Shown piece by piece: positions 1,328 to 29,012 of a DNA stretch of 33,660 nucleotides; within the stretch, counting starts at the first letter, position 1, and every line of letters begins with the position of its first letter. The DNA is from Planctomycetota bacterium. GTDB lineage: Bacteria > Planctomycetota > UBA1135 > UBA2386. Both the position numbers and the translations under genes were made by a program. The notes below the pieces were generated by a model that searched no databases, was not told the origin of the DNA, and saw only the letters and a program-made list of their open reading frames with translations. The stretch is from assembly GCA_016795295.1 (NCBI GenBank), contig JAEUHP010000109.1, positions 1 through 33,660 on the forward strand, in the 5' to 3' direction.

Positions 1328-1600
1328 ATGAACTGGCAACTGCTCGCTTCCGTGTTCGGCAGCGTGTTCGTCGCGGAACTCGGCGACAAGACGCAACTCG
1401 CCACCATGCTGTTCGCCGCCAAGGGCGAAGCCTCGAAGTGGCAGATCTTCGCCGCCGCGTCCGCAGCCCTGGTGGTCTCGACCGCGCTCGGCGTGCTCGC
1501 CGGGCACTACGTGGGCGCGCTGCTCAACCCGAGGCACCTCCAATACGCAGCCGGCATCGGCTTCGTCGCCATCGGCCTCTGGACCCTCGCGCGCGCCTGA
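1328..1600 (+). CDS. GDT1/UPF0016 (TMEM165-like) half-size cation transporter
   Basis: This is a 90-residue, very hydrophobic inner-membrane protein with the family signature E-x-G-D-K-T (ELGDKTQLATM, residues 17-27) in the first membrane segment. Two further hydrophobic segments follow (about 37-58 and 71-89). GDT1/UPF0016 members transport Mn2+ or Ca2+ (for example bacterial MneA and eukaryotic TMEM165). Full-length proteins carry two such three-helix units, whereas this gene encodes only one, so it would need to dimerise or pair with a partner. A start at 1292 would add twelve residues unlike the family. ATG 1328, giving MNWQLL, puts the first helix at the N terminus and is preferred. It may be convergent with hutH, whose stop lies 45 bases away. 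Confidence 0.85.
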   Translation: MNWQLLASVFGSVFVAELGDKTQLATMLFAAKGEASKWQIFAAASAALVVSTALGVLAGHYVGALLNPRHLQYAAGIGFVAIGLWTLARA

Positions 1601-1645
1601 CCGGAGCCACCACGGCGCAATGCCGCGCCCCGCACGAACCCGCCC

Positions 1646-3175
1646 TCACACCGCCAGCGGCCCGACCTGCCGTTCGGCCGCGGCCACCAAATCACCCTCG
1701 GCGACCAGCCGTTCCGCCGCCGCCAGATCCGGCGCCAAGAACCGGTCGCGCTCGAGCGCCGGCACCACCTTGCGCAGCGCGCGATACGCCGCCTGCACGC
1801 CGCGCCCCGGCCGCAGCTTTGCCCCCAGATCCAACCCCTGCGCCGCCGCCAGGAACTCGATGCCGAGCACCTTGGTGGTGTTCTCGGCCACCTGCACCGC
1901 GTGCCGCGCCGCCGTGGTTCCCATCGACACATGGTCCTCGCGATTCGCCGAAGTCGGAATCGTGTCGACGCTCGACGGATGCGCCAACGTTTTGTTCTCG
2001 CTGGCCAGCGACGCCGCCACCACCTGCGCGATCATGAACCCGCTCTCGAGCCCCGGATGGCGTGCCAGGAACGGCGACAGACCCGAGATGTCCGGATTCA
2101 CCAACTGCTCGATGCGGCGTTCGCTGATGTTGGCCAGCGTGGCCAGCGCGATCGCCAGATAGTCCATGGCCTGGCTCACCGGCTGGCCGTGGAAATTGCC
2201 GCCGCTCAGCACACTGCCATCGCCGAACACCAGCGGGTTGTCGGTGACCGCATTGGCCTCGGTGACCACCACGTCGAGTGCGTAGCGGATGCCGTCCTTG
2301 CTGGTGCCGTGCACCTGCGGCGCACAGCGCAGCGAGTACGGATCCTGCACCTTGCCGCAGTCCTTGTGCGAAGGCAGGATCGCGCTGCCCGCCAGCAGAG
2401 CACGCAAGTTCGCCGCCGTGGCCTGCTGGCCCGGATGCGGCCGCAGTTCGTGGATGCGCGCATCGAACGCGGTGGCGGTGCCGCGCAATGCTTCGAGGGT
2501 CATGGCACAGGCGAGGTCGGCAGCCTTGGCCAGCAGCCGCGCCGTGGCCACGGCATGGCAACCGATCGCCGTCATGATCTGGGTGCCGTTGATCAGCGCC
2601 AGGCCTTCCTTCTCGCGCAGTTCGAGCGGTGCCCGGCCCAGCTTGGCCAGTGCCGCGGCTCCCGAACGCACCGACTTGCCGTCGTGCACTTCGCCCGCGC
2701 CGATCAGCGGCAGCGCCATGTGCGACAGCGGCGCCAGGTCACCCGACGCGCCGACCGAGCCCAAGGAAGGGATCACCGGGACGTAGCCGGCGTTGAACAG
2801 GGCCAGTGCCTGTTCGAGCAGTTCGAGGCGCACGCCCGAACAGCCCAGGGCGAGGTTGTGGATGCGCAGGGCGAAGGCGAGGCGGCTGTGGTGTTGCGGC
2901 AACGGCGAACCCATGCCGGTGGCGTGGCTCAGCAGCAGGTTGCGCTGCAGCAGGGCCAGGTCCTGGTCCGGGATGCGCACGCCGGCCAGCTTGCCGAAGC
3001 CGGTGTTGATGCCATACATGGTGCGGCCGGTGGCGACGGCGCGCTCGACCACGGCACGGCTCGCGCGAACGCGCGCACGAGCGGTCTTGGCCAGCTGGAT
3101 GCGCGAACTCGGCTGGCCGAGGGCGATCAGGGTGGAGAGCGGGAGGTTGGGTTCGCCGAGCAGGATCGCAGCCAC
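1646..3175 (-). CDS. hutH: histidine ammonia-lyase
   Basis: HutH deaminates L-histidine to urocanate, the first step of histidine degradation, in the cytoplasm. The 509-residue length is normal. The MIO prosthetic-group tripeptide is Ala143-Ser144-Gly145 within GSVGASGDLAPLSHM. The active-site tyrosine is Y54 in MYGINTGFGKL. The family blocks QDPYSLRCAPQVHG (about 277-290) and NREDHVSMG (411-419, with the catalytic-type Glu413) are intact. The QDPYSLRC context and overall length favour histidine over phenylalanine or tyrosine as substrate. No other hut gene (hutU, hutI, hutG) is present in this window, so the pathway must be completed elsewhere. The gene is divergent from the TPR lipoprotein gene across a 216-base gap in which no specific site was recognised. 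Confidence 0.96.
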   Translation of the reverse strand: MAAILLGEPNLPLSTLIALGQPSSRIQLAKTARARVRASRAVVERAVATGRTMYGINTGFGKLAGVRIPDQDLALLQRNLLLSHATGMGSPLPQHHSRLAFALRIHNLALGCSGVRLELLEQALALFNAGYVPVIPSLGSVGASGDLAPLSHMALPLIGAGEVHDGKSVRSGAAALAKLGRAPLELREKEGLALINGTQIMTAIGCHAVATARLLAKAADLACAMTLEALRGTATAFDARIHELRPHPGQQATAANLRALLAGSAILPSHKDCGKVQDPYSLRCAPQVHGTSKDGIRYALDVVVTEANAVTDNPLVFGDGSVLSGGNFHGQPVSQAMDYLAIALATLANISERRIEQLVNPDISGLSPFLARHPGLESGFMIAQVVAASLASENKTLAHPSSVDTIPTSANREDHVSMGTTAARHAVQVAENTTKVLGIEFLAAAQGLDLGAKLRPGRGVQAAYRALRKVVPALERDRFLAPDLAAAERLVAEGDLVAAAERQVGPLAV

Positions 3176-3391
3176 GCGGCGAACCTAGTGCGGCTGCTGG
3201 GCGGCGGCAAGGCTGCAGGCGGATGGCCCCCGGCGCCGCTCCCCGGCGGCGGAGCAAAGCCCTGCTCGCTTCCGCCCTTCCCTCCCAGCACCCCGCGTGC
3301 CACAATCCAGGCGGTCGCCACCCCTCTCCCGCGCTCCATCCCGCGCCGGCTGCACCCCGCAACGGGTGCTGGCCAGAGTTCGCTGTTCCCC

Positions 3392-6300
3392 ATGAAGCCA
3401 ACGACCCTCCTCTGGTGCGCCGCCGTCGTGGCCGCCTGCGCCAGCGTCCCGTCCCCGAGCCTCGAGTCCGAAGCCCGCTTGGTGCAAGCCAAGAGCCTGC
3501 TGGCCTCCGACCCGCACCAGGCCTTGGCCATCACCGACGAACTGCTCAAGCAGGCCCCGCGTTGGCGCGACGCCCGGCTGTGCGCCGCGGACGGCTCGCA
3601 GCGCCTCGCCGCCAGCGCCAAGGACAGCCGACGCCCGATGCTGCTGCAGGAGGCGGTGGCCAACCTCGAAGTGGTGGTCGCCGATGCCCCGCCGCGCGAC
3701 GTGCCGGAGGTCTGGCGCGATCTGGCGCAATGTCGCTTCGACCTCGGCTCGTTCGAAGCTGCGGCCGACGCCGCGCGCACCGCGCTGGAGGGGTTCGCCG
3801 CCCGCGGCACCGCCGCCAGCCGGCGCGATGCCGCCGCGGTCGTGCTGCTGGCCGCTCGCGCCGACCTGCGCGTGATGGCCGAACGGCGCCAGGCCGAACT
3901 GCAGACGCTCGCCCCCGACCGCCGCGGCTACGTGGTGCCCAAGGCCGCCACCGCCAACTTGGCGCAGCGCATCGTCAGTGAGTTCGACAGCGCCCGCCGC
4001 GAGTTCCCGGCCGAGGCGTGCACCGGCATCGCCGAGGTGTGGGCCTGGCTCGGCCAGGACCGCGCCATGGTCGACGAGTACGAACGCGGCATTCGCAGCG
4101 CGCCGACCAGCGGGGCGATCCACGAAGCCTACCTGGCGCGCCTGTGCGAACTCGGCCAGCAGGACGCGCTGGTCGGCGCCTATGCGACGTTCGTGCGCGA
4201 ACAGCCCACGGTGCCGCTGCTGCGCTGGTACCAAGGCCGCGCTCAGTTCGCCAAGGCCGACCAGCTGCGCGCACTCGGCAGCTTCGGCCCCGCCGTCACG
4301 GCCTACCAGGCCACCAAGGCCGTGTTCGCCGAGTACGGCGCCATGGTCCCCGCGCACCTCGAGGATGCCCGCGCTTGGGTGGCGCTGTGCGAACTGTCCA
4401 GCGCCCGCACCGCCGTGGAGCAAGGCGACTACAGTGGTGCGCGAGCCTTCTTGTTCGCGGCCGACACGGCTTCGCCGCGCGCCACCGCCTACGACGGCGA
4501 CCGGCCGGCGCTGACCGACAGCTTCGGCAGCCACTACACCGGCGTGGTGTTCGCGTTGAACCGGGCGCTCGCCGAGAGCGGCGTCGACGGCGTGGCCAAG
4601 GCGCTGGAGTTCAACGAAGCGGTGCTGCAGCGCCATCCCGACCGCTGGGGCTTCGTCTACAACAACGCGGCCCTGCCGGCGCGCGACCTCGGCGTGCGCT
4701 ACGCCGACGAAGGCAAACAGGCGGCGGCCCGGGAGCTGTGGGAACGCAGTTACCGCTACTACGAGAAGGCGGCGGCACTGTCGCCCGACGACGCGCGCAT
4801 CCAGAACGACTGCGGCCTGATGCTGATCTACCACCTGCACCGCGACTTCGGGCGCGCCGAGGCGCTGTTCGTGAAGGCGATCGAGATCGGCACCCGGCAG
4901 CTCGAGGCCCTGCCCGGCGACACCGCGGCGCGCGACCGCGAACTGCTCGAAGAGGCCGTCGGCGATGCGTGGCAGAACCGCGCCGTGCTGGCGCGCAACC
5001 ACCTGCACAAGCCGTTCGCCGAGTACCGCGCCTTCTGCACCGAGGCCGTGCGCTACTACCCCTACGAACGGCGTACCGCCGCGGCCCTGCTGCGCAGCGA
5101 AGGCCGCGACGACGGCGAGTCGGCGGCGGTGACCTTGGTTCTGCAGGGCACGGCCGCGGAGGCGCTGGCCAAGATCAAGGCCGCCGTCGACCAGAAGGCC
5201 GCCGACGGCGAATTCGACGACGCGCTGGGCCTGCTCGACGGCATCGCCAAGGAATGCGAGAGCCATGCGCCGTTCCACGCCCTGCGCGGCGAGCTGACCC
5301 TGAAGTTGGCCAACAAGAACCGCGAACTGCGCCGACGCGGCGTCGACCTGCTGTTCCAGGACGGCGTGGCCGCCTTGGAGCGGGCCGTGTCGCTGGACGG
5401 TGAGCCGATCCTGCCCCGCCAACTGCTGGCGCAGGCGCTCTACGACACCAACAAACTCGACGCCGCGGTCGGCGCGGCCTCGTCGCTGCTGCTGCACCTG
5501 CAGTCGAAGGGTGGCGGCAAGCCCGAGGAGCAGTTGGCCGCCCACACGGTGCGCGCCAACGCCGCGGGGCGCAGCTACGCAGCCGCGCGCAACGACGGCA
5601 AGGACAACCCCGAACTGCTGACCGCGGCGCGCACTTCGTTCCGCGCACTCGAAGCGGCGGGCAAGCTCGACGCGGCGCTGGCAGCGCTGTGGTCCACGAC
5701 CGAGCAGTGGGCCAAGGCACCGGCCGAAGCGGTGGCGATCTACGTGCGGGCCCTGAAGCGCACGCCCGACGACCAGGCCCTGCTCGGCACCCTGCTCGAC
5801 ACTGCCGCCAACGTGGGCCAGCTGCCCCTGGCGATCGAGGCCCTCGGCGCCCGCGACGACGCCACGTCGCGCTGGTACCTCGGCAAGGCGCACTACCTGC
5901 AGGCCGCCGCCCTGCGCGAAGGCGGCAAGGTGCCCGAAGCACAGCAGGAGCTCGACCGCGCCAAACAGCGTTTCACCGAGTCGATGCAGAAGAACACCGA
6001 CTACCGCGACAGCTGTGAGCAGTGGCTCGCCATGGTGCTCGGCAAGAAGGGCAACATCGCCTTCCGCAGCGACGACTTGGCCAACGCCGAACAATGGCTG
6101 CTCGAGTCGGTGCGCCTGCGCCCGGGCTCGGTCGGCGAAGACCTGGGTCTCGCCGAGACCACCAAGCTCGGCCTGATGCAGGTCGCCGACAAGCACTACA
6201 AGAAGCGGGATCTGGCCAAGGTCGAAGCGATCTACCGCGCCGCCTCCGACGCGGCCCAGAACGACCTCGACCTGCTCAACAATTCTGGCCTGTTCGCGCG

Positions 6301-13472: not shown

Positions 13473-15428
13473 TCAACCGCCACAGCCGAGCCAGCGGCCG
13501 ATCTGCTGGATCAGCACCGCGACCAGCCATGCCAGCGCGGTCATGTAACCGAAGGTGAAGACCGGCCAGAACCACGAGTGCGTCTCCCGGCGGATCGCCG
13601 CCAGCGTCGACGCGCACTGGCTGCACAGCGCGAAGAACGCCAGCGCCGCGAGGGCGGTGAGCCCATCGATCGCCAGCCGGCCGTCGGCGGCCTTGGCCGA
13701 GCGCAGCGCGTCGCGCAGGCGGTGCACCGAAGTGCTGTCGGGGTCGCTGTCGGCTTCGACCGCGCCGAGGCTGTGCAGCGTGCCGAGCGTCGGCACCACC
13801 AGCTCGCGAGCCGGGAACGCGGCCAGCACCGACACGGTGAGCCGCCAGTCGAAGCCCGCGGGCGCGAACAGCGGCTGGATGCCGCGGCCGAGCCGAGCCA
13901 GCCAGCTCTGTTCGAGGTAGGCACGCGCTTCGGCCGCGGCGATCCGTTCGCGTTCGGCATCGCCGTCCGGCCCTTCGACCACCGCGGCGCTCTGGGCCGC
14001 GAACGCTTCGCGCACCGCGTCCGGGCGCGGGAAGTAGGCGAGCAACCACACCAGCAGCGTCGCCGCCAAGATCACGGTCCCAGCGGTGCGCACGAACGAC
14101 CGCACCGCCAGCCAGGTCTGCTGCCAGACGAGGCGCAGACGCGGTCGTTGGTAGACCGGCAGTTCCATCAGCAGCAACGAGGTGCCGCCGCGCAGCAGGG
14201 TGCGCCGCAGCAGCGTCGCCACCACCGCCGCGGCGACCACGCCGAGCAGATACAGCAGCAGCAACAAGAGCCCGGCCTGTTCGGGCGGGAAGAACGCTGC
14301 GAGCAGCACCACGTAGACCGGCAGGCGCGCCGAACAGGACATCAGCGGCGCCACCGCGATGGTGGCCAACCGGTCGCGTTCGTCGGTGAGGATCCGGGTG
14401 GCCAGGATGCCGGGGATCGCGCAACCGAAGCTGCTCATCAACGGCACGAAACTCTTGCCGGTGAGCCCCACCGCGCGCAGCAGCCGGTCGAGCAGGAACA
14501 CCGCGCGCGCCATGTAACCCGAGGCTTCGAGCACCGCCACCGCGGCGATCAGGAGCGCAATCTGTGGCACGAACAGCAGCGTGGTGCCCACCCCCTGCAC
14601 CACCCCGTCGACGAGGCAACTGCGCAGCGCGCCTTCGGCCAGGATGGCTTCGAGGCCCGCGGTCGCCGCCGCTTGGCCCTGTTCCACCAGCGCCATGAAC
14701 GGCTCGGCGATGCGGAACACCCCCTGGAACAGCAGCGTGGCGCCCGCCGCGAGCAGCAGCGGCCCGAACAGCGGGTGCAGCAGCACGCGGTCCAGGCGGT
14801 CGGTGGTCGAACGGTCGGCGCGGGCCGGCCGGCAGTCGGGGCCGTGTGTCGCCCCAGGCAGTGGCAGGGTCGGCACCGGCAGAGTCGGTGGCACGCGCGG
14901 CACCGGCAACGGCTCGGCGGCGAGCCGCTGCAGCAGTTCGGCGGCGCCAGCACCGGTCCGGCCGTCGCAGACCACGAGCGGTACCGCGAGGGCCTGCTGC
15001 AGGCGCGCAGCATCGACCGGATTGCCTTCGGCCGCCGCTATGTCGAGCTTGGTCAGCACGGCGAGCAACGGCAGGCCCAGGCTCGCCAGTTCGCGCAAGA
15101 AGCGCAGTTCGACCAGGAGCCGGCTGCCGTCGAGCACCGCCACCAGCAGATCCGGTGGCGGGCCGCCGATGCCGCGCAGCGCGGCCACGGTGACCTGCTC
15201 GTCGCGGCTGAGCGCCTGCAGCGACCCGATCCCGGGCAGGTCGACCAGCAACAGACGCCGACCGTCGACCACCTGCTCGCTCTCGGTGCGCTCGACCGAG
15301 GTGCCGGCGAAGTTCACCGGGCGCTGCAGCGTGCCGGTCAGGTGCATCAGGAGCGAAGTTTTGCCGGCGTTGGGGCGGCCCACCAACGCGATGCGGCGCA
15401 CGGGCAGCGCAGCGGCCGCGGCACTCAC
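13473..15428 (-). CDS. feoB: ferrous iron transport protein B
   Basis: FeoB is the inner-membrane Fe2+ permease with an N-terminal G-protein domain. The 651-residue protein starts at GTG 15428, preceded by GGGAG at six bases. GTP-binding motifs are G1 GRPNAGKT (17-24), the switch threonine T43 in FAGTSVE, G3 DLPG (63-66) and G4 TKLD. The membrane part holds two gate-type repeats, including GKSFVPLMSSFGCAIPGILATR and MSCSARLPVYVVLLAAFF, with the conserved Cys residues of the family. A late FFALCSQCASTLAAIRRET segment is also typical. The start GTG overlaps the feoA stop (GTGA), so the two are translationally coupled. The length is at the shorter end for FeoB. Expression is probably iron-repressed through the palindrome at 15747-15763. 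Confidence 0.96.
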   Translation of the reverse strand: MSAAAAALPVRRIALVGRPNAGKTSLLMHLTGTLQRPVNFAGTSVERTESEQVVDGRRLLLVDLPGIGSLQALSRDEQVTVAALRGIGGPPPDLLVAVLDGSRLLVELRFLRELASLGLPLLAVLTKLDIAAAEGNPVDAARLQQALAVPLVVCDGRTGAGAAELLQRLAAEPLPVPRVPPTLPVPTLPLPGATHGPDCRPARADRSTTDRLDRVLLHPLFGPLLLAAGATLLFQGVFRIAEPFMALVEQGQAAATAGLEAILAEGALRSCLVDGVVQGVGTTLLFVPQIALLIAAVAVLEASGYMARAVFLLDRLLRAVGLTGKSFVPLMSSFGCAIPGILATRILTDERDRLATIAVAPLMSCSARLPVYVVLLAAFFPPEQAGLLLLLLYLLGVVAAAVVATLLRRTLLRGGTSLLLMELPVYQRPRLRLVWQQTWLAVRSFVRTAGTVILAATLLVWLLAYFPRPDAVREAFAAQSAAVVEGPDGDAERERIAAAEARAYLEQSWLARLGRGIQPLFAPAGFDWRLTVSVLAAFPARELVVPTLGTLHSLGAVEADSDPDSTSVHRLRDALRSAKAADGRLAIDGLTALAALAFFALCSQCASTLAAIRRETHSWFWPVFTFGYMTALAWLVAVLIQQIGRWLGCGG

Positions 15429-15763
15429 GGAGCACTCCCGTCCGCAGGTGCCTGCGGTGCTGGACGCTGCTGGCCGCGCACCCGCGCCGCTTCGTTGCGG
15501 CGCAGGGCCAACCGGAACCCGTGCAGCCGCACCCGCAACGGCTCGCCGAACGGGCCGCGGCCCAGACACTCCACCACGGTGCCGGGCCAGAAGCCGTTGG
15601 CGGTGAGGCGGGCGGCGAGTTCGTCGCTGCCCTGCACTTCGGCCACGACCAGCCATTCACCGGTCGCGAGTTGGTCGAGACCGCGCAGGCCAGCGCCGGC
15701 AGCGGCTGGCCCGGCGGCCGCCGGCGCAGGGAGGGATCCGTCGCTATTGAGATCGATTCTCAA
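15425..15763 (-). CDS. feoA: ferrous iron transport protein A (SH3-like); start uncertain
   Basis: A small cytoplasmic SH3-like partner of FeoB. The domain core is clear: GLDQLATGEWLVVAEVQG, then LAARLTANGFWPGTVVECLG and PLRVRLHGFRLALRRNEAARV. This is the usual FeoA order, ending in the RxxEA segment. The stop (15427-15425) overlaps feoB's GTG. The start is unclear because there is no ATG in frame. TTG 15763 (112 residues) lies inside the Fur-like box, GTG starts further up would place the whole operator inside the gene, and CTG 15688 would give an 87-residue protein of normal family size. The coordinates given use TTG 15763. The N-terminal ~25 residues of that choice are Ala/Pro/Gly-rich and not FeoA-like, so the true start may be lower. 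Identity as FeoA is well supported by domain and position. Confidence 0.85.
   Translation of the reverse strand: MRIDLNSDGSLPAPAAAGPAAAGAGLRGLDQLATGEWLVVAEVQGSDELAARLTANGFWPGTVVECLGRGPFGEPLRVRLHGFRLALRRNEAARVRGQQRPAPQAPADGSAP
15747..15763. promoter_or_regulatory. Fur-like operator upstream of feoAB
   Basis: TTGAGATCGATTCTCAA is a 17-bp palindrome: TTGAGA and TCTCAA arms around a 5-base centre. Its form agrees with the 7-1-7 Fur-type pattern (TTGAGAAT-N-ATTCTCAA), and it lies immediately upstream of a ferrous-iron uptake operon. A near-identical copy lies at 22538-22554. The regulator itself is not in the window. Confidence 0.75.
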
Positions 15764-20697: not shown

Positions 20698-22482
20698 ATG
20701 GGCTCCGTTCCCGGCACCCCTCCACCCGAGACGCCCTACCAGGTCGTCGCCCGCCGTTTCCGGCCGCAGACCTTCGGCGAGATGGTCGGCCAGGACGACG
20801 TGCTCAAGTCGCTGCGCCTCGCCCTGCAACAGCACAAGGTGCCCCACGCCTTCCTGTTCTCGGGCAGCCGCGGCGTCGGCAAGACCACTTCGGCGCGCAT
20901 CCTGGCCCGCTGCCTCAACTGCGTGCGCGGCCCGACGCCGGAACCGTGCGGCGAGTGCCCGGCGTGCCGTTCGATCCTGGACGGCAGCAACCCCGACGTG
21001 ATCGAGATCGACGCCGCGTCGAACAACGGCGTCGACGACGTGCGCAGCCTGCGCGAACACCTGGGCTACGCCACCATGCAGTCGCGCTACCGCGTGGTGA
21101 TCCTCGACGAGGCCCACATGATGTCGAAAGGCGCGTTCAACGCCCTGCTCAAGACCCTCGAAGAGCCACCGCCGCAGGTGGTGTTCGTGCTCGCCACCAC
21201 CGAGATGCACAAGCTGCCCGACACCATCGTGTCGCGCTGCCAGGTGCTGCTGTTCCGTCGGGTTGGCGAACCCGACCTGATGCGCCGGCTGCGCACGATC
21301 GCCGACCGCGACGGGGTGGCGGTGCCCGACGCGGTGCTCGCCGAGATCGCCCAATCGGTGCACGGCGGCGTGCGCGACGCCGAAACCGCGCTCGAACGCG
21401 TGCTGCCGGTCGCGCGCGAACTGGGCCCGGCCTTCGACCTGGCCGCCTACCGCACGCTGGTGGCCAAGGTCGGCCTCGACCGCGCGGTCGAAGTGGTCGA
21501 AGCGCTGCTGGCCGGCGACGTGCGGGCCGGGCTCGCGTTCGCCCGCGAACAAGAAGAGCGCGGCATCGACCAGTACGAAGCGCTCGGCGAACTGGTCGAG
21601 GTGCTGCGCTGGCTTCTGTTGCTGCAGGCCGACGGCCCCGACAGTGGCTCGGTGCAGGTCGCCGGGGCCCTGCGCGAGCGGCTGGTGGCACTGGCCAAGC
21701 AGGTGTCGCTGCACCAGCTCGACGCGCTGCTCTCGGCGGGCCTGAAGGCCCGCACCCGGCTGCGCGAGGGCGACGACCGCAGCGCCGTGTTCGAAGTGGC
21801 GCTGGTGCGCATGGCCCAGGCCGGGGCCCTGCCGACCCTCGCCGATCTGCTGGCCGAAGTGCGCGCAGGCGGCGGCTTCGCGGCGGCGGCGACCGCGGCC
21901 CCCGCAGCGGCGCGGCCGCAGTTCGGCAAAGCGGCCACGAGTGCTGGGGCCGGGCCGGCACCGACGCCACCGCGGCCAGGGGCCGGGACGCCAGCCGGTG
22001 GCGGTGCGCCAGCAGCCGCCGGGGCGCCCCCTCCCGGTGGCGACCTCAAGGCGCGAGTGAAGTTCGCGCTGAAAGAGCGCGGCCTCCTGCAGGCGACGCT
22101 CGACACCTGCCGCTTCGACGGCCCAGGCAGCGAGGGCAAGGTGGTGGTCACGACCACTGCCACGCAGCGCATGCACCTGGATCGGCTGGCTTCGCCGGAC
22201 GTGCAGCGCGAGCTCACGCAGACGCTGGTGGCGCTGCTGGGCCCAGTGCAGGTCGAGTTCCGGCTGCCGAGCAGTGCGGCCGGCGCGCCGGGTGCGGCGG
22301 CGGCCACGCCCCCGGCGAAGGTGAGCCTCGGCGAAACCGGGAAACGCGTGTTGGGCCAGTTCCGCGGCCGGGTGGTCGAAGTGAATCCCACCGACCGGCC
22401 GCAGCCGAGCGAGCCGGTGCGCGAGGCGCGCGACGAGCCAGCGCCGGGTGCGGAGCCCGAGCTGCCCGAACCCCAGGACTGA
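20698..22482 (+). CDS. dnaX: DNA polymerase III subunits gamma/tau
   Basis: The clamp-loader ATPase of the replicative polymerase, 594 residues from ATG 20698; ATG 20686, four codons earlier, is equally possible. YQVVARRFRPQTFGEMVGQ (14-32) is the family N terminus. Walker A is GSRGVGKT (56-63). The zinc-binding cysteines follow in RCLNCVRG and EPCGECPAC. Walker B is VVILDEAHMMS, and sensor 1 and the SRC arginine-finger motif are in FVLATTEMHKLPDTIVSRCQ. The C-terminal third has an Ala/Pro/Gly-rich linker and a tau-like end. No A-rich slippery sequence for programmed gamma production was seen. It is 83 bases downstream of the methyltransferase. The usual recR and YbaB neighbours are not adjacent. 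Confidence 0.96.
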   Translation: MGSVPGTPPPETPYQVVARRFRPQTFGEMVGQDDVLKSLRLALQQHKVPHAFLFSGSRGVGKTTSARILARCLNCVRGPTPEPCGECPACRSILDGSNPDVIEIDAASNNGVDDVRSLREHLGYATMQSRYRVVILDEAHMMSKGAFNALLKTLEEPPPQVVFVLATTEMHKLPDTIVSRCQVLLFRRVGEPDLMRRLRTIADRDGVAVPDAVLAEIAQSVHGGVRDAETALERVLPVARELGPAFDLAAYRTLVAKVGLDRAVEVVEALLAGDVRAGLAFAREQEERGIDQYEALGELVEVLRWLLLLQADGPDSGSVQVAGALRERLVALAKQVSLHQLDALLSAGLKARTRLREGDDRSAVFEVALVRMAQAGALPTLADLLAEVRAGGGFAAAATAAPAAARPQFGKAATSAGAGPAPTPPRPGAGTPAGGGAPAAAGAPPPGGDLKARVKFALKERGLLQATLDTCRFDGPGSEGKVVVTTTATQRMHLDRLASPDVQRELTQTLVALLGPVQVEFRLPSSAAGAPGAAAATPPAKVSLGETGKRVLGQFRGRVVEVNPTDRPQPSEPVREARDEPAPGAEPELPEPQD

Positions 22483-22521
22483 GCCGCCCCCTGCCGGCGC
22501 GCCGCCCCGCATCGTGCGCTC

Positions 22522-22549
22522 TTGCGCTTGGTGTTACTTGAGATTGAAT
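22522..22549 (+). promoter_or_regulatory. candidate sigma70-type promoter under the second Fur-like box
   Basis: TTGCGC (22522-22527), a 16-base spacer, then TTGAAT (22544-22549), which matches 4 of 6 bases of the -10 consensus and lies inside the Fur-like palindrome. Overlap of operator and -10 would give direct repression. Weak on sequence alone in such a GC-rich background. Confidence 0.3.
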
Positions 22550-22554
22550 CTCAG
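22538..22554. promoter_or_regulatory. second Fur-like operator, upstream of small Cys/His gene
   Basis: TTGAGATTGAATCTCAG: left arm TTGAGATT and right arm AATCTCAG pair at 7 of 8 positions around one central base. It is identical to the feoAB box at 14 of 17 positions. It lies in the 90-base gap after dnaX, 19 bases before a ribosome-binding site and ATG 22573. Confidence 0.7.
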
Positions 22555-22572
22555 TAGCGATAAGAAGGGGCC

Positions 22573-22680
22573 ATGCTCCCGACCACCGATCCTCCTTGCC
22601 GGACCAAGACGCCGTGGCTCGGCGCACTGCTCAGCGCGCCGTCAGGCCTCGATCTCGCCGCGACCAGAGGCAGGGCGTGA
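22573..22680 (+). CDS. 35-codon ORF, possible leader peptide
   Basis: ATG 22573 is preceded by a purine-rich AGAAGGGG that can serve as ribosome-binding site, directly behind the Fur-like box. It encodes 35 residues (MLPTTDPPCRTKTPWLGALL and onward, ending ATRGRA) without recognisable domain. Its stop TGA (22678-22680) is two bases before the ATG of the Cys/His-rich gene, a spacing typical of translational coupling. It shows no match to HemP-like peptides that often accompany Fur-controlled genes. It could be a real small protein, a leader peptide that opens the next gene, or chance. Codon third positions are mostly G or C, but so are competing frames. Confidence 0.4.
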   Translation: MLPTTDPPCRTKTPWLGALLSAPSGLDLAATRGRA

Positions 22681-22682
22681 CC

Positions 22683-22901
22683 ATGTGCCGACCGACCAAC
22701 TTGGCCGCCCGCGGCCCGTTCCGCATCGACCACTGCAGCTGCGGCTGCCTGCACCTGCACCTGGGACCGGTGATGGTGCGACTCGATCTCGCCGCAGCCC
22801 CGGCGCTGCTCGCGTTGTTGGAGCAGGCGCAGGAACGCCTCGCCACGCCACCGCGCTGGCTGGGGCCTGGCTCGGACCAGAAGCCGGAATCGCGCAACTG
22901 A
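22683..22901 (+). CDS. small Cys/His-rich protein, probably iron-regulated
   Basis: A 72-residue protein starting at ATG 22683 (MCRPTN). The central part FRIDHCSCGCLHLHLGPVMV (13-32) packs Cys18, Cys20, Cys22, His17, His24 and His26, a plausible metal or Fe-S binding knot. It is followed by a strand-like VRLDL and a helix (LLALLEQAQERL). The tail is hydrophilic. Short proteins with a CxCGxxHLxxGPxxLRL core occur in various bacteria as uncharacterised proteins; this relation is from memory and not searched. A longer frame start at 22596 adds 29 residues lacking conservation features and overlaps the 35-codon ORF. The Fur-like box at 22538-22554 upstream suggests production when iron is scarce. 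Function unknown. Confidence 0.7.
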   Translation: MCRPTNLAARGPFRIDHCSCGCLHLHLGPVMVRLDLAAAPALLALLEQAQERLATPPRWLGPGSDQKPESRN

Positions 22902-22944
22902 ATGCGGCGCACCGGGCCGCCAGCGCCACCGCCTGCGCGCCGAC

Positions 22945-24354
22945 TCAGACGCGGAAGCCGCTGGCGCCGGCGAGCCCGTCGCCGAGCCGCTGCCAGCGAC
23001 CGCGCAGTTCGCAGCGCCACAACACCCACAGCCCCCCGGCACCACCGACCGCGAGCTGCGCCAGCAGCCACGGCAGACCGCCGGCCCCCGGCACCAAACA
23101 CGGCAGCGCGGCACCGGCGGCGGTGGCCAGAGCCGCGAGCAGCGGCGCCGTGAGCCAGCGGCGATGGCCGACCAGCAACTCGGCGCGCAGGGCGAACAGC
23201 GATCCCGCCAGATAGACCGCGTGCGCCGCAGCGAACCCACCCGCAGCCAGTTCGCCGGCCCCCGGGGCGGCGAGCCAAGCCCACCAAGCCAACTGCAACA
23301 CGGCAGGCCCGAGCAAGCCGAGCGCGTAGGCGCGGTCGCGGCCGGCCGCGAGCAGCGCGTGGCTGCACTGCCAACCGAGGTGCAACAACACACTGCCGGC
23401 GAGCCAGAGCCGCAGCACCGGTGCGGTCGCACGGTGCTCGGGACCGAACCAGGCACAGAGTGGTTCGGCCACCACCAGCCCCCCGGCGAGGACCGGCAGC
23501 GCGGCGAACGCCGTGGCGCGCAACGCCGCCCGCACCGTGGCGACCCGGTCGCCCCCCACCGGCGCCCGCAGCAGGTGCGGCAGCAGCAACCGGACCAGCT
23601 GCGCCGAGGGCAGCAAGGCCGCCGCACCGAGGCGCTGCGCCAGTGCGTACCCGCCGGCCGCGGCATCGCCGAACCACAGCGCGACGAACCACACGTCGCC
23701 GGCGGCGAGCACTTCGTGGGCGGCTTGGCCGAGCCCGACCAGTGGGTTGGGGCGCACTGACGCCGGGAACGGCAGGGGGCTGCGCGGCAGCGCCGCCGCG
23801 GTGTGCAGCACGCCCAGTGCGTAGAGGCTGCGGCACCCGAGCGCAATCGCCACCAGTGGCCACAGTTCGCCACCGCCGCAGGCGAGCCAGACGGCGACCA
23901 GCGCCAACTGCAGCGCGGCGGCTGTGGTCTCGAGGCCGACTTCGCGCCGCGCCAAGCCCATGGCGTCGAACAACAGCTTGCCGTCGCAGGCCAGCGGCAG
24001 CGCCAACAGCAGGCTCAGAGTCCAGAACCACGGTGCGGCGGTGCCGGTCCAGGCCCACAGCAGGGCGGGCACCAGCAGGGCACCGGTGTTGCGCAGGCGG
24101 GTGCGCAGCGCCAAGCGCAGCAGCGGCCCGGCGAACTGCGGCGCCCTCGCCATCTCGCGCGTCAGCACGAGGCGCACCGGGGCCCCCGCGAGCACGGCGA
24201 GCAGGCCGGCGATGGCGAGGCCTTGGGCGTAGACGCCGAGCTGGGCCAGCGGCAGCGCCCGGCCGACCAGCGCGAACGCCGCAAGCTGCAACAGACGCTG
24301 GCCGAGGGCGGACAGCCCGAACAGAACCAGCGTGCTGCGGACCCGATGCGCCAC
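22945..24354 (-). CDS. polysaccharide flippase-like membrane protein (MOP superfamily)
   Basis: A 469-residue, very hydrophobic inner-membrane protein with about twelve to fourteen predicted helices, starting at GTG 24354. The layout resembles Wzx/MATE-type (MOP superfamily) lipid-linked oligosaccharide flippases. The N-terminal helix pair STLVLFGLSALGQRLLQLAA is followed by LPLAQLGVYAQGLAIAGLLA, the 'G.YA' segment common in this group. The middle has VLAAGDVWFVALWFGDAAAGGYALAQRL, again family-like. No glycosyltransferase or polymerase genes surround it, so the substrate cannot be guessed. It lies 66 bases downstream of hflC on the same strand. Its stop converges with the small Cys/His gene over 43 bases. 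The superfamily call is fairly sure; the transport role is inferred. Confidence 0.75.
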   Translation of the reverse strand: MAHRVRSTLVLFGLSALGQRLLQLAAFALVGRALPLAQLGVYAQGLAIAGLLAVLAGAPVRLVLTREMARAPQFAGPLLRLALRTRLRNTGALLVPALLWAWTGTAAPWFWTLSLLLALPLACDGKLLFDAMGLARREVGLETTAAALQLALVAVWLACGGGELWPLVAIALGCRSLYALGVLHTAAALPRSPLPFPASVRPNPLVGLGQAAHEVLAAGDVWFVALWFGDAAAGGYALAQRLGAAALLPSAQLVRLLLPHLLRAPVGGDRVATVRAALRATAFAALPVLAGGLVVAEPLCAWFGPEHRATAPVLRLWLAGSVLLHLGWQCSHALLAAGRDRAYALGLLGPAVLQLAWWAWLAAPGAGELAAGGFAAAHAVYLAGSLFALRAELLVGHRRWLTAPLLAALATAAGAALPCLVPGAGGLPWLLAQLAVGGAGGLWVLWRCELRGRWQRLGDGLAGASGFRV

Positions 24355-27929: not shown

Positions 27930-29012
27930 ATGCCGAATCCCATGCACGCGTTCCGTTTCCTCCCGCAGGCGGCCCTGTGCCTGGCAGCCTTGCTGCCAAC
28001 GTGCGCGGCTGCGACCCAGCAGCTGCCCCGCCACAACGTGGTCGCGGCGACCCCCGACCTCGGGGCGCTGTGCCGGGCGATCGGCGGCGAACACGTCACC
28101 GTGACCACGTTCGTCGTGGGCCCGCAGGACCCACACTACCTCGATGCCCGCCCCAGCATGCTCTACGCCTTGCAGAAGGCCGAGCTGCTGGTGTTCTTGG
28201 GGCGCGAACTGGAAGGCGGCTGGCTGCCGGTGCTGATCAACAACGGCCGCAACCCGGTGACCCAGGCTGGACAGTTGGGCCACCTCGACTGCAGCAGCGC
28301 GGTGCGCGCTCTCGGTGTGCCCCAGTCCGGGACCAACCGCAGCGCCGGCGACATCCACGCGGCCGGCAATCCACACTACCTGCTCGACCCGTTGTGCGGT
28401 CTGCAGGTGGCGGAACTGCTGCGCAACCGGATGGCGGCGCTGTGGCCCGCCGAGCGGGACGCGTTCACCGCGAACTTCGCCGCGTTTCGGCAACGCCTCG
28501 CAACAGCCATGGTCGGCCCCGAGTTGGCGAAGGCCTACGAATACGCCGCCGAATCGCTGGCGCAGGCGTACGGCAACGGCACGCTGCTCGATGTGCTGAA
28601 GGAGCAAGGCGACCTGCAGCGGCTGGGCGGCTGGTTCGCGCAGGTGGCGCCCCTGCGCGACCGCGCCTTGGTCGTCGACCACGATCTGTGGCCCTACTTC
28701 GCCGAACGCTTCGGCTTCCGGTTGTTCGGCTACCTCGAACCGAAGCCGGGCATGACGCCGTCGTCCGCGCACCTCGAACAACTGGCGAAGCGCATGCGCG
28801 ACGGCCAAGTGCACGTGTTGCTCGCCTCCTCCTACTTTCCCCTGCAGTATGCGCAGGCCCTGCAGAAACTCGTGCCGGTGACGGTGGCGGAGGTGGCCCA
28901 CCAACCCGGCGCCCGGCCTGGCACCGACGACTACCACGCCTTCCTCGACTACAATGTTCGCACCGTGGTGGCGGCGTTCGCCGCCGCCGATCGGCCTGCT
29001 GCAGGCCGCTGA
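27930..29012 (+). CDS. znuA: zinc ABC transporter, periplasmic binding protein
   Basis: A 360-residue substrate-binding protein of the TroA/cluster 9 family. It has a signal peptide (cleavage near CAAA) and is encoded just ahead of the transporter ATPase. Metal ligands visible: His69 in DPHYLDARPS, His149 in GNPHYLLDP, His251 in VVDHDLWPYF and an Asp (333/334) in GTDDY. The third His, where manganese binders such as PsaA have Glu, supports zinc. The His-rich loop of E. coli ZnuA is absent, with only the short GVPQSGTNRSAGDIH in its place. ATG 27942 (MHAFRF) is an alternative start. It delivers Zn2+ to ZnuB in the inner membrane. Confidence 0.9.
   Translation: MPNPMHAFRFLPQAALCLAALLPTCAAATQQLPRHNVVAATPDLGALCRAIGGEHVTVTTFVVGPQDPHYLDARPSMLYALQKAELLVFLGRELEGGWLPVLINNGRNPVTQAGQLGHLDCSSAVRALGVPQSGTNRSAGDIHAAGNPHYLLDPLCGLQVAELLRNRMAALWPAERDAFTANFAAFRQRLATAMVGPELAKAYEYAAESLAQAYGNGTLLDVLKEQGDLQRLGGWFAQVAPLRDRALVVDHDLWPYFAERFGFRLFGYLEPKPGMTPSSAHLEQLAKRMRDGQVHVLLASSYFPLQYAQALQKLVPVTVAEVAHQPGARPGTDDYHAFLDYNVRTVVAAFAAADRPAAGR

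Follow-up and report, generated by a model that had tools for sequence, protein, structure and literature searches.

A small CxC protein behind a Fur-type box: a probable new accessory of iron uptake in Planctomycetota

Introduction

FeoC is a cysteine-containing protein of about 75 amino acids, and bacterioferritin-associated ferredoxin (Bfd) is a CxC protein of similar size encoded by an iron-starvation gene. A short cysteine-containing layout is also present in DUF6686 (PF20391). The gene for ChuP comes first in a haem operon repressed by Fur; its product binds haem and works on receptor genes at the post-transcriptional level (PMC9131926). CruR (DUF2946) is a copper-responsive upstream open reading frame (ORF) in a leader position, with a CXXC motif and a C-terminal RAPP motif (PMC9426467). 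Known members of the PepSY_TM proteins are mostly ferrisiderophore reductases, although one member serves copper (PMC13038864). Searches of open-access papers yielded nothing relevant on a planctomycete Fur regulon, on its Fur box or on Fur-controlled haem or siderophore uptake.

In this study, a 33,660-nucleotide stretch of planctomycete DNA (the window) was analysed together with the genomes of its relatives. The window is an entire contig (C224) of an assembly of 5.5 Mb in 309 contigs, which is 91% complete and 5.5% contaminated. An initial annotation had pointed to a palindrome shared between a ferrous-iron operon and a small gene, and had put forward the product of this gene, which carries an invariant CxC motif in the family described below, as the best candidate in the window for an undescribed component, with a role in iron handling such as that of a metal chaperone or an Fe–S or iron sensor.

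Results and discussion

Two Fur-type boxes in the window

The two 17 bp palindromes of the initial annotation were confirmed at 15747–15763 (TTGAGATCGATTCTCAA) and 22538–22554 (TTGAGATTGAATCTCAG), as was their agreement at 14 of 17 positions, and feoA and feoB were found behind the former, as had been claimed (Table 1). The stretch that leads from the box to the FeoA domain (15689–15746, minus strand) holds no in-frame ATG, GTG or TTG, which makes the start or frame of feoA doubtful; the sole near-canonical start is a CTG at 15688.

Table 1. Positions of the features discussed, numbered from the first nucleotide of the window
Feature	Position	Strand	Basis or remark
Fur-type operator ahead of the CxC gene	22538..22554	.	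7-1-7 palindrome TGAGATTGAATCTCA at 22539–22553; top matrix score in the window
Companion Fur-type operator before feoAB	15747..15763	.	Between feoA and divergent pnp
128-nt stretch from operator to start codon	22555..22682	+	Presumed mostly 5' untranslated
35-codon ORF between box and CxC gene	22573..22680	+	Probably not a gene
72-aa CxC protein gene	22683..22901	+	Coding-like codon GC, shared homologue Met, leave-one-out HMM
HCSCGCLHLH segment, residues 17–26	22731..22760	+	C18 and C20 invariant; beta2–beta3 turn (AlphaFold)
feoA	15425..15688	-	PF04023, E = 2.3e-15; start codon uncertain
feoB	13473..15428	-	TIGR00437, 417 bits (cut-off 316); start inferred

At the core of the second palindrome lies TGAGATTGAATCTCA, an inverted repeat of perfect 7-1-7 symmetry. 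The pair has the character of Fur-type boxes, being 7-1-7 inverted repeats near TGATAATNATTATCA or TGAGANNNNNTCTCA that recur before the iron-uptake genes of relatives and are rare elsewhere. With ≤3 mismatches, TGAGATYGAWTCTCA matched five times in the window against 0.29 expected, a count reached in 0/100 shuffles, while exact TGAGA-N5-TCTCA occurred twice compared with a mean of 0.006 in dinucleotide shuffles (two copies in 0/500). Across the whole 5.5 Mb assembly, exact TGAGA-N5-TCTCA, TGAGATYGAWTCTCA with 0–1 mismatch and TGAGANNNNNTCTCA (two occurrences) were each found only at the two window boxes, so that the palindrome is not common genome-wide. Mixed binning cannot account for the pairing because both boxes lie on one contig. 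A wider pattern, TGMGANNNNNTCKCA (genome matches L055–L058), was set aside with 12 matches compared with 16 for its reversed control; since it is no commoner than this control, only TGAGA/TCTCA is informative.

An iron box of the lineage

The 300 bp upstream of feoA in relatives were scored for 7-1-7 sites. Among the 29 feoA loci retrieved, 23 have an upstream site of the TGA/TGC type (shuffle P ≤ 0.05), in the form TGAGA(C/T)...TCTCA or TGCGA...TCGCA. A matrix was built from 22 such boxes of other planctomycete genomes, none being taken from the window genome; these training sites, all upstream of feoA, were chosen by our own Fur-like consensus score and beat shuffled controls. With this matrix, the best-scoring site of the window was 22539–22553 (27.1 bits), followed by the feo box (24.7 bits). 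The third site, at 22777–22791 (TGCGACTCGATCTCG, 15.2 bits), lies inside the CxC coding sequence, may be a chance match and was left uncounted; every other site scored <7 bits. No site as high as either window box occurred in 4 Mb of simulated Markov sequence. Because the feoA-box matrix ranks 22539–22553 at the top, without an equal in the simulated sequence, the palindrome is, as judged from sequence, the iron box of the lineage. Promiscuous matching by the matrix can be discounted, since no site of ≥14 bits was found at 20 loci around the FUR genes of relatives; the box does not seem to control Fur itself.

A single FUR-family protein was found in the assembly (L020, 1414–1860, minus strand, contig C147). 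It is PerR-like, with ligand residues that by inspection we take to be of the PerR type, and its gene has a peroxiredoxin gene and a Dps-like ORF as neighbours. A classical full-length Fur was not detected in the assembly, which is incomplete (91%). FUR proteins are present in 29 of 30 relatives, most of them full-length (E about 1e-27 to 1e-35), and because of this and of the incompleteness, loss of the fur gene from the assembly is probably the simplest account. The same evidence bears on whether the box serves another regulator (PerR-like, Zur-like or RirA-like) or another metal, leaving the small protein unrelated to iron. This has only a slight probability: the sole FUR protein found is PerR-like, the 15 bp TGA-N9-TCA form fits other regulators too and there is a ZnuA-like gene at a distance of 5 kb; however, the box is found upstream of feoA throughout the order and also upstream of a haem-uptake operon, and the relatives point to a fur gene lost from the assembly.

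The 72-residue protein and its family

The ORF behind the second box was borne out as annotated, with three Cys and three His within ten residues (HCSCGCLHLH). Its GC content by codon position (0.71/0.55/0.86) is close to that of other genes here (about 0.75/0.53/0.87), and its homologues begin at the same Met. No signal peptide or membrane segment was seen in the protein. The 128-nt stretch ahead of the gene gave no sigma-70-like promoter match, and the 35-codon ORF within it, beginning at 22573, was rejected as a gene, having a GC content of 0.61/0.72/0.78, unlike local genes, and no family match. A gene for a ZnuA-family metal ABC transporter binding protein lies 5 kb from the CxC gene (27930–29012, plus strand), and no Fur-type box was found near it.

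Homologues were found in four further genomes, G020 (46% identity), G017 (37%), G127 and G182, giving five members; the closest sits in a genome of the same family. When an HMM was built from any four members, the fifth scored 24–62 bits, compared with 8–13 for the best of 2000 shuffles. The distribution is patchy, with members in four of 154 genomes of the class and in one elsewhere in the phylum sample. The latter, in G182 (L019/L022), is a lone Fur-boxed CxC gene in another class, which suggests that the family is old or was transferred. Further weak profile matches (G158, with an internal stop, G182 C254, G009, G004, G137 and G112) were dropped because they lie in other or long unrelated frames, and a tblastn search of plasmids with four members gave chance matches only (E > 1).

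In this shallow alignment of five members, the start Met, C18, C20, G28 and L53 are invariant, and P29 and R33 are shared by four of the five. The conserved Cys/His core of the initial annotation has therefore to be narrowed: its CxC is invariant, whereas conservation among homologues does not extend to the third Cys or the three His of the window copy. As only two Cys are invariant and the homologues do not share the His-rich part, any metal site is putative. Pfam, NCBIfam and PHROGs held no credible match for the window protein or its four homologues, which supports the view of an undescribed component. Judged on sequence evidence, the CxC proteins are a real, undescribed small family of the iron regulon with putative chemistry.

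AlphaFold models of two members that are 32% identical, which rest on three-row alignments only, predict the same beta4-alpha core, with a mean pLDDT of 84–90 over residues 1–40 and the CxC at the beta2–beta3 turn. Foldseek searches of the PDB and of viral models with both models gave nothing at E ≤ 0.001; scattered weak matches (PURA, MoSub1) were not counted as evidence. A search of the PDB by sequence profile returned helix look-alikes only.

Gene context of the five members

The idea of a shared operator is strongly supported, as the box precedes feoA in most of the relatives checked and stands at the head of the unit in each of the five family members (chance expectation 0.0005–0.0016 per 400 bp search); the homologues thus do carry boxes. 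In the window (G000), the box is followed by the CxC gene alone and then by a convergent polysaccharide-flippase-like gene. The gene also stands alone in G182, with a box (TGAGACTCATTATCA) 99 nt ahead of its ATG and a separate 658-aa ORF beyond it. In G017, the box (TGCGACTGCGTCTCA) begins 37 nt ahead of the ATG, and the CxC gene is followed by a PepSY_TM gene, which it may overlap at GTGA. The box of G020 (TGCGACTGAGTCTCA) lies immediately before the first gene of its unit, which encodes a 345-aa protein predicted to be secreted and is followed by a PepSY_TM gene and, last, the CxC gene. In G127, the box (TGATAATCAATTTCA) begins 29 nt ahead of the ATG, inside GATAATGATAATCAATTTC, near the classical Fur consensus; the CxC gene, with a possible ATGA overlap, is followed by genes for an HmuY-domain protein, Peripla_BP_2, FecCD, an ABC ATPase and HemS, and is thus the first gene of an HmuY–HmuTUV–HemS haem operon. 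The operator, the family and the conservation of box and operon can be read directly from these sequences.

Two further features of the G020 unit (L023) were observed. The predicted secreted protein at its head (2591–3628, minus strand) has no Pfam match, and a strong hairpin, with a predicted energy of -36.8 kcal/mol over 110 nt, lies between the PepSY_TM and CxC genes (about 1583–1683, minus strand), where it is a possible terminator or attenuator.

These neighbours, the predicted iron reductase PepSY_TM twice and a haem-uptake operon once, support the proposed role in handling iron. No single substrate is indicated because the operon partners differ. Since one PepSY_TM protein serves copper, a non-iron role of the PepSY_TM-linked copies could still apply. 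Iron-repressed expression, which had been predicted from the operator, is strongly supported by the conservation of the box and is a strong prediction.

The stand-alone copies also bear on whether the locus acts through a small RNA under Fur control, with the ORF secondary. The short monocistronic Fur-boxed units of the window and G182 and the 128-nt leader would suit this idea, which is nevertheless highly improbable given the conservation at the protein level across genera, the coding-like codon composition, the operonic copies and the absence of an Rfam match in 22400–23000. The ORF could also be a metal-sensing leader of the CruR/DUF2946 kind, in which metal binding by the nascent peptide controls downstream genes. 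In G017 and G127 it is small, contains Cys and comes first, ahead of uptake genes, and a precedent exists in CruR, which has a CXXC and heads an operon for a TonB receptor and PepSY_TM (PMC9426467). However, such a leader is improbable and is disfavoured because stand-alone copies (in the window and G182) and an operon-terminal copy (in G020) exist; moreover, the genes of G017 can overlap without a regulatory gap, and neither a RAPP-like arrest motif nor an export signal was seen.

Comparison with known systems

The closest functional parallel, by analogy, is with HemP/HmuP/ChuP. Like these, the CxC protein is small, has a Fur-type box ahead of its gene, heads a haem operon in G127 and is predicted to be cytosolic. 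The families differ in that the CxC protein has its invariant CxC and also occurs alone and with PepSY_TM, and in that none of the five matches the Pfam HemP profile at E ≤ 10. A haem-uptake operon is headed in G127, the other members lying elsewhere. With CruR the protein shares a small Cys-motif ORF able to precede PepSY_TM genes, but it has CxC instead of CXXC, a Fur-type box and stand-alone copies, and it lacks the export signal, RAPP and the fixed leader position. DUF6686 was rejected because its profile matched nothing in these five genomes at E ≤ 10, in a weakly powered search, since few candidates had passed a first look.

The CxC gene resembles that of FeoC in size, in encoding Cys and in being controlled together with feoAB in the window, and the protein resembles Bfd in size, CxC and iron-starvation control. 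It is unlikely that the protein is a Bfd- or FeoC-like Fe–S or thiol electron-transfer partner, in which a cluster bridged by two CxC protomers, or redox-cycling thiols, would help iron release or sensing during starvation. The CxC is invariant, one member has its operator in common with feoAB and two of the five lie in operons with PepSY_TM, known members of which reduce ferrisiderophores (PMC13038864). Against this, neither the FeoC nor the Bfd (Fer2_BFD) model of Pfam gives a match, the predicted fold is beta4-alpha and not the winged helix of FeoC, and only two Cys are invariant, the second Cys pair of the four in Bfd being absent. Furthermore, the gene lies outside the feo operon, and no FeoA was found in G017 or G020, both of which carry it.

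Proposed role

The reading that we prefer, at about even odds in its specific form, is that the locus is an iron-starvation gene for a Fur-repressed cytosolic Fe- or haem-binding accessory or regulator, which occupies the HemP/HmuP slot and belongs to an unrelated family. When iron is replete, a Fur-family repressor on 22538–22554 would shut off the CxC gene along with feoAB, and when iron falls both would be expressed, as predicted from the operator. The product would be a small, probably cytosolic protein of about 50 ordered residues with the beta4-alpha fold and the CxC at the beta2–beta3 turn. C18 and C20 may bind incoming Fe(II) or haem, helped in the window copy by neighbouring Cys and His, perhaps across a dimer. 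The protein could then buffer the metal, pass it on or signal its arrival to the uptake system, in a role like that of the unrelated small Fur-controlled HemP/HmuP/ChuP proteins in haem uptake.

Conclusions

The earlier finding stands and is strengthened, with its Cys/His argument reduced to the CxC. Because it shares a Fur-type box with the ferrous-iron importer, and because of the boxes and the iron and haem neighbours of its four relatives, it is very probable that the CxC protein is a small, new accessory to iron uptake in bacteria, with a putative chemical role. It is possible, though doubtful, that the family serves Planctomycetota as a general sensor or adaptor for iron or haem inside the cell, coupled through Fur control to unrelated systems of uptake (ferrous iron, PepSY_TM reductases and haem ABC transport) and filling the role of the Proteobacterial HemP, FeoC or Bfd. 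The analysis provides a matrix for the iron box of one planctomycete order, which has been tested, and links a family of small proteins to this box in five genomes. Together they offer a concrete handle on iron sensing or handling in these bacteria, and the CxC family is a candidate for the functional counterpart of HemP or FeoC, differing in sequence and in predicted fold.
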